Below the pieces are notes generated by a model that was not told the origin of the DNA, searched no databases, and saw nothing but the letters and a program-made list of their open reading frames with translations. From an archaeon (GTDB taxonomy: Archaea > Thermoproteota > Nitrososphaeria > Nitrososphaerales > Gagatemarchaeaceae), in assembly GCA_021819105.1 (NCBI GenBank), contig JAKASK010000002.1, forward strand, positions 1 through 64,000: a stretch of 64,000 bases of DNA, read 5' to 3'. Below, one piece after another: positions 19,200 to 21,527 of this stretch. Position numbers and translations under genes: made by a program. Every line of letters starts with the position of its first letter. The stretch's first letter is position 1.

Positions 19200-21527
19200 A
19201 TGAAGTTTCTCTTCGTCACCTACGAAAGCTTGTCTGCGGATTTGGCCTGGCAGCTCAAGAAGGAAGGTCACGAGGTAAAGATGTACTGCCACGGTCAGGG
19301 GGAGAAGGACGTCGGCCTGGGGTTCTTCGAAAAGGTGGAGGAGTGGGAGTCGCTCAAGGACTGGGCCGACGTGATAGTCTTCGACGACATCGGATTCGGA
19401 AACAAGGCGGACCAGCTCCGGGGGGAGGGGAAGTTCGTTGTTGGTGGAAGCCCCTACACGGACAAGCTCGAGCTCGACAGGGAGTTCGGGCAGTCGGAGC
19501 TGAAGGCGGTCGGGGTCGACGTGCTGCCCAGCTGGAACTTCACCTCCTTCGACGAAGCCATCGACTTCGTCAGGAAGAACCCTGACAGGTACGTGCTGAA
19601 GCCGAGCGGGAAGGCGCAGAATGAAAAGGAGCTGCTGTTCGTCGGCCAGGAAGCGGACGGGAAGGACATCCTGCAGATACTCGAGCACTACAAGGTGAAC
19701 TGGTCGAGGAAGATCAAAGAGTTCCAGATGCAGAAGTTTGCCGAAGGGGTGGAAGTGGCGGCGGGAGCATTCTTCAACGGGAAAGACTTCGTGTATCCCT
19801 TCTGCGTCAACTTCGAGCACAAGCGGCTCTTCCCCGGGGAACTAGGGCCAAGTACGGGCGAGATGGGGTGCTACGACGAACAGACCGAAGTCCTGACCAG
19901 GGCCGGATGGAAGCGCTTCGGCGCCCTGGGGTACCACGATGAAATCTGCACGCTGAACCCAACTACAGACGAAGTGGAGTACCAGCGCCCCGAGGCACTC
20001 GTCGCCTTCACCCACCACAAGAAGCTGCTTTCCATTCAGACCAAGGCGCTCGACATAGTCGTCACCCCAGACCATAACATGTACGTCCAGTCGCGGGGAG
20101 ACGCCCGCAAGCGGAGGAACAAGTTCAGTTTCATCAAGGCCAGGGACCTCGGGGCCCAATCAGTCGTCAAGAGGACCGGGATCTGGGCGGGGAAGGAAGC
20201 CGAGCGCTTCACCCTCCCGTCTGTGGAGATGGGGCAGGTTATAGGCCGGACGGGCCTGGTCGCTCGCACGGAGTCCGGCGAGACGGAGGTCCCCATGGAC
20301 GCCTGGGTCGCCTTCATGGGGATCTGGCTGTCGGGCGGCGGATGGGCGCAGGAAGGTCAGGGGTGCCGGGCCGCCGTGGCTCGGGACGTGGGAGGTCCGA
20401 CGGATAAGGCAAAGGAGCTCCTGCAGGCCCTACCCTTCGAGTTTCACGAAGACGGCCACCGGTTCGTTTCCGATGACCAACGGCTCTGCACCTACCTCAG
20501 GGAATCCGGAGAGGCGAGAGAGAAGCACGTTCCGCGGTACGTCAAGGAACTCGGCCCGAGGCAGATCAACATCTTCCTCGACTGGTTCTCGAAGGGGGGC
20601 GCCGCGACGACGAAGGACAGCCACCGAGTCTTCCACACCGCATCCCGGACGCTGGCTGATGACATTCAGGAACTGCTGCTCAAGGTCGGCAGGGTAGGTA
20701 CGATCACGCATGGGAGAGGGCGAGGCGAAGCGCGGGCGGCCGACCATCGGGCGGATGGTTCAGGGAGCCTGTTCGAAGTGCACGAGCAGGTAAGGAGGCT
20801 GGACTCCTTGATCGACAGGAGAAAGGTGAAGGCGATCAGTTACGGCGGAACGGTCTACTGCGCCACGGTGAAGAACCACCTGATGTATGTCCGCAGGAAC
20901 GGCAAACCCTACTGGTGCGGAAACACGTCCATGTATTGGACTAGGAGCAGCCCGGTCTTCGACCGGACGCTGTCCAAGATGAAGGACAGGCTCGCAGCGA
21001 GCAAGTACGTCGGCTACATAGACATCAACTGCATAGCGAACAGCAAAGGCATCTGGCCCCTCGAGTTCACGGCGCGTCCCGGATATCCGACGATAAGCAT
21101 TCAGATGGAGGGCATCACGAGCGAATGGGGTCAGTTCCTGTCGGACATTGCGCATGGGGGCGACACGCTGCTGAAGACGAAGAAGGGGTATCAGATCGGA
21201 GTTGTCGTCGCCATCCCACCCTGGCCCTTCGAGGACGAAAAGGCGTTCAAGCGGTACTCGGAGGGCGCCACCATCCTCTTCCGGCGCCAGGCACTGGACG
21301 GGATACACATCGGCGAGGTGAAGCAGGAGGACGGCGACTGGCACATCGCGGGGAACTCGGGCTACGCCCTCGTCGTCACCGGTTCGGGCGCCACGATGTC
21401 CGATGCCATCGAAAGGGCCTACCAGAACGTGAAGAACGTGATGATACCGAACATGTTCTACCGCAGCGACATCGGTCAGCGGTGGACCCACGACAGCGAC
21501 ATGCTGATCAGTTGGGGCTACATCTAG
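19200..21527 (+). CDS. PurD-like ATP-grasp ligase interrupted by an intein
   Basis: Without the intein (residues 224-575) the host protein is about 423 aa, the usual length of phosphoribosylamine-glycine ligase (PurD)-like enzymes. Matches include KFLFVTYES at the N-terminus, VLKPSGKAQNEKE in the ATP-grasp subdomain and the metal/ATP loop GELGPSTGEMG, at which the intein is inserted; IDINCIANSKGIWPLEFTAR follows. It may be a PurD paralogue, since other pur genes are not nearby. A GATATTAACG box 27 nt before ATG indicates a leaderless mRNA. Confidence 0.82.
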   Translation: MKFLFVTYESLSADLAWQLKKEGHEVKMYCHGQGEKDVGLGFFEKVEEWESLKDWADVIVFDDIGFGNKADQLRGEGKFVVGGSPYTDKLELDREFGQSELKAVGVDVLPSWNFTSFDEAIDFVRKNPDRYVLKPSGKAQNEKELLFVGQEADGKDILQILEHYKVNWSRKIKEFQMQKFAEGVEVAAGAFFNGKDFVYPFCVNFEHKRLFPGELGPSTGEMGCYDEQTEVLTRAGWKRFGALGYHDEICTLNPTTDEVEYQRPEALVAFTHHKKLLSIQTKALDIVVTPDHNMYVQSRGDARKRRNKFSFIKARDLGAQSVVKRTGIWAGKEAERFTLPSVEMGQVIGRTGLVARTESGETEVPMDAWVAFMGIWLSGGGWAQEGQGCRAAVARDVGGPTDKAKELLQALPFEFHEDGHRFVSDDQRLCTYLRESGEAREKHVPRYVKELGPRQINIFLDWFSKGGAATTKDSHRVFHTASRTLADDIQELLLKVGRVGTITHGRGRGEARAADHRADGSGSLFEVHEQVRRLDSLIDRRKVKAISYGGTVYCATVKNHLMYVRRNGKPYWCGNTSMYWTRSSPVFDRTLSKMKDRLAASKYVGYIDINCIANSKGIWPLEFTARPGYPTISIQMEGITSEWGQFLSDIAHGGDTLLKTKKGYQIGVVVAIPPWPFEDEKAFKRYSEGATILFRRQALDGIHIGEVKQEDGDWHIAGNSGYALVVTGSGATMSDAIERAYQNVKNVMIPNMFYRSDIGQRWTHDSDMLISWGYI
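19869..20924 (+). mobile_element. Intein (352 aa) with inactivated LAGLIDADG endonuclease
   Basis: The insert begins with Cys (CYDEQTEVLTRAGWKRF, block A), has block B TPDHNMYV and ends YWCGN before Thr (+1 of the C-extein). It sits in the conserved GEMG|TSMY loop of the ATP-grasp host. The residue before the final Asn is Gly instead of the usual His. The two homing-endonuclease motifs read FMGIWLSGGGW and FLDWFSKGGA; the catalytic acidic position is Gly in both (codons at 20334 and 20595). Splicing should still be required for an active host enzyme, while homing is probably lost. Confidence 0.85.

Follow-up and report, generated by a model that had tools for sequence, protein, structure and literature searches.

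An intein lacking both LAGLIDADG catalytic acids at a widely used site of PurD-like ATP-grasp genes in a Gagatemarchaeaceae archaeon

Inteins with a dead endonuclease are already known, the direct precedent being the VMA intein of Pyrococcus horikoshii (PhoVMA; structure 7qst), whose endonuclease is devoid of the catalytic acids and proved inactive (PMC8966425). Approximately 5% of functional inteins carry a residue other than the customary penultimate histidine (PMC4031507), and for one of these—the RDF intein in gp51 of mycobacteriophage Bethlehem—complete splicing was demonstrated with the native glycine, while a glycine-to-histidine exchange led to precursor accumulation (PMC5050341). The intein described here, found in a 64,000-nt stretch of archaeal DNA (hereafter the window), has likenesses to both. 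Like PhoVMA, it is archaeal and lacks the acids in both helices of an otherwise intact LAGLIDADG fold (Z of 14.8, rmsd of 2.8 over 153 residues between PhoVMA and our model); PhoVMA, however, resides in another host gene at another site and has a truncated block E, whereas in the window the acids are replaced by glycines without such truncation. With the Bethlehem intein it shares class 1 membership and a native Gly-Asn end, but the latter interrupts a phage gene and retains an active endonuclease (the splicing assay called for an inactivating mutant). Our preferred reading, to which we assign a probability of about 90%, is that of a class 1 intein occupying a widely used site in PurD-like genes; it would splice and retain its endonuclease fold but, deprived of both metal-binding acids, would no longer cut and would be inherited passively.

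The host gene (19200–21527, forward strand, as are all features below) is an open frame for a 775-aa precursor. GARS_A (precursor residues 94–227, E = 1.8e-10) and GARS_C (residues 686–761, E = 2.9e-10) flank the insert with scores above the Pfam cut-offs, which makes the precursor ends part of the PurD (glycinamide ribonucleotide synthetase) superfamily. Scores for the PurD model TIGR00877 were 95.9 bits for the precursor and 98.2 bits for an orthologue with an empty site, both under the equivalog cut-off of 288, and near-complete genomes of the genus (e.g. G010) encode a second, better-matching GARS protein (E of about 1e-23) beside the PurD-like one. For these two reasons, we refer to the host as a PurD-like paralogue of putative function, not PurD proper; in the assembly containing the window (65% complete), the second GARS protein was not found. 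As the host motif GPSTGEMG aligns with GPNTGGMG of the solved PurD structure 2yrw, the insertion falls within a conserved segment of the ATP-grasp part, in agreement with the preliminary description of this locus. Sequence identity of the N-extein (19200–19868; 223 aa, ending in GPSTGEMG) to its counterparts elsewhere in the genus is 82–91%, and the C-extein (20925–21527; 200 aa plus stop) shares 90.5% identity with its equivalent in the empty-site orthologue of genome G085. Uninterrupted orthologues within the genus measure 423 aa, i.e. 775 minus 352, which is the spliced length that had been proposed. Our search of the open-licence literature for inteins in PurD or ATP-grasp genes returned nothing relevant.

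The intein (19869–20924) comprises 352 aa, running from CYDEQTEVLT to YWCGN and followed by Thr. Its boundaries, placed at these positions from the outset, recur identically in 21 other inteins at the same site and are thus not a matter of chance. Searches of Pfam and NCBIfam yielded only sub-cut-off intein and LAGLIDADG matches, and the PDB, queried with the intein as a single sequence, offered nothing useful; Hint and LAGLIDADG folds were matched by an AlphaFold model built from an 11-sequence alignment (mean pLDDT of 70, i.e. moderate confidence, with values under 50 in places within the Hint domain). The ends of this model resemble mini-inteins such as Npu DnaE (Z = 9.9). Its middle resembles TliVMA (Z = 17.7) in addition to PhoVMA, and the two-repeat LAGLIDADG fold is further apparent from matches to PI-PkoII (2cw7, Z = 17.9) and I-DmoI (4una, Z = 13.8), so the endonuclease fold is predicted to be kept.

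All 22 aligned same-site inteins possess the first splicing nucleophile Cys1 (19869–19871 in the window), the block B histidine (His69 within TPDH; 20073–20075), a cysteine at block F position 4 (Cys331; 20859–20861), the block F histidine (His337; 20877–20879), and a Gly-Asn end followed by Thr+1 (Gly351-Asn352 and Thr+1; 20919–20927), the last arrangement being present also in four phage contigs. Cys1, His69, Asn352, and Thr+1 identify a class 1 intein; the penultimate histidine, usual for this class yet not obligatory, is replaced by Gly351. Glycine likewise precedes the last residue in 46 of 50 related inteins from viral contigs. Given this invariance within the same-site set and the viral relatives, the missing histidine is a fixed trait of the family and not decay, and we dismissed the penultimate glycine as a sign of degeneration. 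A class 3 mechanism acting through the block F cysteine was also considered and rejected: class 3 inteins are marked by the lack of a nucleophile at position 1 together with Trp B:12, Cys F:4, and Thr G:5, while here there is a Cys1, and Met instead of the class 3 Trp stands two residues past the block B histidine. Splicing is very probably normal and would most likely follow the usual steps, from Cys1 to Thr+1 to cyclization of Asn352, with His337 and its surroundings likely substituting for the absent penultimate histidine, as they may do across the family (a role taken from PMC4031507 and PMC5050341).

Active LAGLIDADG homing endonucleases carry an acid at the end of each of the two helices. 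In the window, the first helix with its next residue (residues 143–157, the helix being 143–156 in the model; 20295–20339) and the second (residues 230–245; 20556–20603) were delimited by model and alignment, and the positions in question are taken by Gly156 (20334–20336) and Gly244 (20598–20600), both located at the ends of the predicted helices and both encoded by GGC. The preliminary description had recognized the two replacements and the first codon; the second, however, it had assigned to 20595–20597, which encodes residue 243, a glycine that precedes the acid column and is invariant in the 11-row alignment. At either position, 19 of the 22 same-site inteins have Asp or Glu, and the same three lack both: the window's (G/G), that of G077 from the same genus (R/R), and the woesearchaeal L082 (N/N). 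Both acids have thus been lost three times, in separate lineages. With both acids gone, homing and DNA cleavage are very probably lost, as had been anticipated, and loss of the endonuclease is well supported; inserts of this kind ordinarily reach such a state late in their life. A domain without its metal-binding acids would leave empty alleles uncut, and the intein would be passed on passively, splicing being maintained by the host protein's dependence on it. Within its genome, the PurD-like intein is the one affected by the loss, since six other LAGLIDADG inteins found there have acids at the expected places (and HN ends), as read by eye following a Pfam profile search.

To gauge constraint, branch lengths were estimated in a separate run for each domain, on the fixed topology of the intein tree; dN/dS was not used because the same-site inteins are too diverged at synonymous sites. 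For the endonuclease domain, the end branches of the window, G077, and L082 inteins amounted to 1.03, 1.45, and 1.06 substitutions per site, against a maximum of 0.52 among the other 19. The fastest endonuclease domains are those of the three acid-less copies and no others, which supports relaxed constraint, albeit not as a formal test, and the acceleration is not confined to this domain: the window's Hint branch is fairly long as well (0.45), and the Hint branches of all three acid-less inteins exceed the average. Alternatively, the domain might have been repurposed rather than be decaying, i.e. selected for a task other than cutting, such as stabilizing the splicing domain or binding the site. 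The lack of any frameshift or stop, the predicted intact fold, and the contribution of endonuclease domains to splicing suggested for the TliVMA and MvuTFIIB inteins (PMC8966425) speak for this view; yet relaxed constraint in precisely those copies without acids argues against it, and we consider it unlikely.

Two further explanations fare worse. The intein might no longer splice, or splice too poorly to matter, the gene being on its way to loss. This would accord with the absent penultimate histidine, from which slow and conditional splicing had initially been expected unless another residue compensates, but that expectation does not withstand the invariance of Gly-Asn in the same-site family and the complete splicing of the Gly-Asn phage intein (PMC5050341); as, in addition, the frame is open and the C-extein conserved, we regard a splicing defect as very improbable. 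Least credible of all is that the two glycine codons are sequencing or assembly errors hiding an intact endonuclease: each GGC is indeed a single transition away from GAC (Asp) and the data stem from a single metagenome-type assembly, but it is improbable that two independent errors would hit precisely the catalytic codons, the remainder of the domain is unusually divergent, too, and the other inteins of the genome do have their acids. A spliced intein with a dead endonuclease hence remains our preferred reading, with the qualification that the assembly is incomplete (65%) and Asp-bearing alleles may exist in the population.

The insertion site, initially thought to be rare, is common. Searching 201 genomes of the order and scanning species-representative genomes, we found ten other genomes of the order with a same-site intein, 46 to 56% identical to the window's over the intein, and, going by record titles, occupied sites in Nanoarchaeota, Aenigmatarchaeota, Micrarchaeota, Woesearchaeota, 'Candidatus ainarchaeum', and the CPR bacterium Nealsonbacteria. 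Taken together, the same-site inteins of Nitrososphaerales, DPANN archaea, Nealsonbacteria, and IMG/VR phage contigs are 33–56% identical to that of the window and have in common the site, Cys1, the GN end, Thr+1, and the block F cysteine, but differ from it by an acid at both LAGLIDADG positions in all except G077 and L082. The intein of G133, a relative from the same family, is identical to that in a Candidatus Gagatemarchaeum stordalenia record, from which the window's organism probably belongs to this thaumarchaeal family or stands close to it.

On a tree of 35 host proteins from which inteins had been removed, presence at the site changes at least nine times, with six changes forced by well-supported branches, and the nearest extein to the window's, that of G085 (90% identical), has an empty site. 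Gain through homing or transfer could account for this pattern, and so could recurrent loss. Related genomes provide a clear natural example of the homing cycle at a single site, with alleles that are empty, occupied and intact, or occupied and dead, and they lend themselves to tests of the pace at which an endonuclease decays after cutting has ceased, as well as of Asn cyclization in Gly-Asn inteins without the usual histidine. One group of empty-site orthologues (L027, L033, and L035 of G066, G097, and G157) has Asn instead of Thr as the +1 residue (TGEMGN), which should not support splicing of the PurD-like intein. Contig C48 of G100 (L094, L077) combines a PurD-like intein at this site with a related one inserted between GPPG and CGKT of an AAA-type ATPase that lies within a few kilobases.

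Four IMG/VR contigs (L129, L130, L131, and L137) likewise encode PurD-like proteins with an intein at the GEMG/T site, all with intact acids. The adjoining frames look tail-type by eye, and one contig shows a weak terminase match (E = 3.6e-8). Phages are plausible intein carriers, but their PurD-like proteins are just 32 to 35% identical to the window's host over the N-extein, and from this divergence these four phages are not the direct source of the window intein. In a broader scenario, a single intein family recognizable by its invariant Gly-Asn end and block F Cys would have spread, with phages as carriers, into one active-site position of the PurD-like genes of Nitrososphaerales, DPANN archaea, CPR bacteria, and tailed phages, and would cyclize Asn by a compensated chemistry without need for a penultimate histidine; we put it forward tentatively and hold it to be doubtful as a whole.

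The PurD-like gene offers further insertion sites. A second one, 49 residues downstream at the PurD signature (between PLEWT and CRFGYP), holds inteins in further members of the genus (L020, L021, L025, L058, L059, L066, L067, and L068 in G121, G127, G044, G172, G025, G106, G187, and G160, respectively). Several of these copies are short of one or both acids. At the catalytic positions, second-site inteins of G025 and G172 read G/G and those of G187 and G160 L/R, while G106 has kept both acids; the inteins of G121 and G127 end in LN and SN instead of GN. Joint occupancy of the two neighboring sites occurred in none of 35 genomes (10 and 6 carriers), an outcome also given by ~11% of random placements, and we therefore make no claim of mutual exclusion. 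For the six other LAGLIDADG inteins of the window's genome (L001–L007 on contigs C10 and C4), sequence motifs point to the following putative hosts: SufB (two inteins), two secretion-type ATPases, one MoxR-like AAA ATPase, and one family B DNA polymerase. Finally, a PurD-like gene from Gribaldobacteria (L089; PEWP01000053.1) has an empty GEMG site and contains two inteins, one at the second site and the other at a third, early site (after WVDWADIV and before CFDDVGWG).
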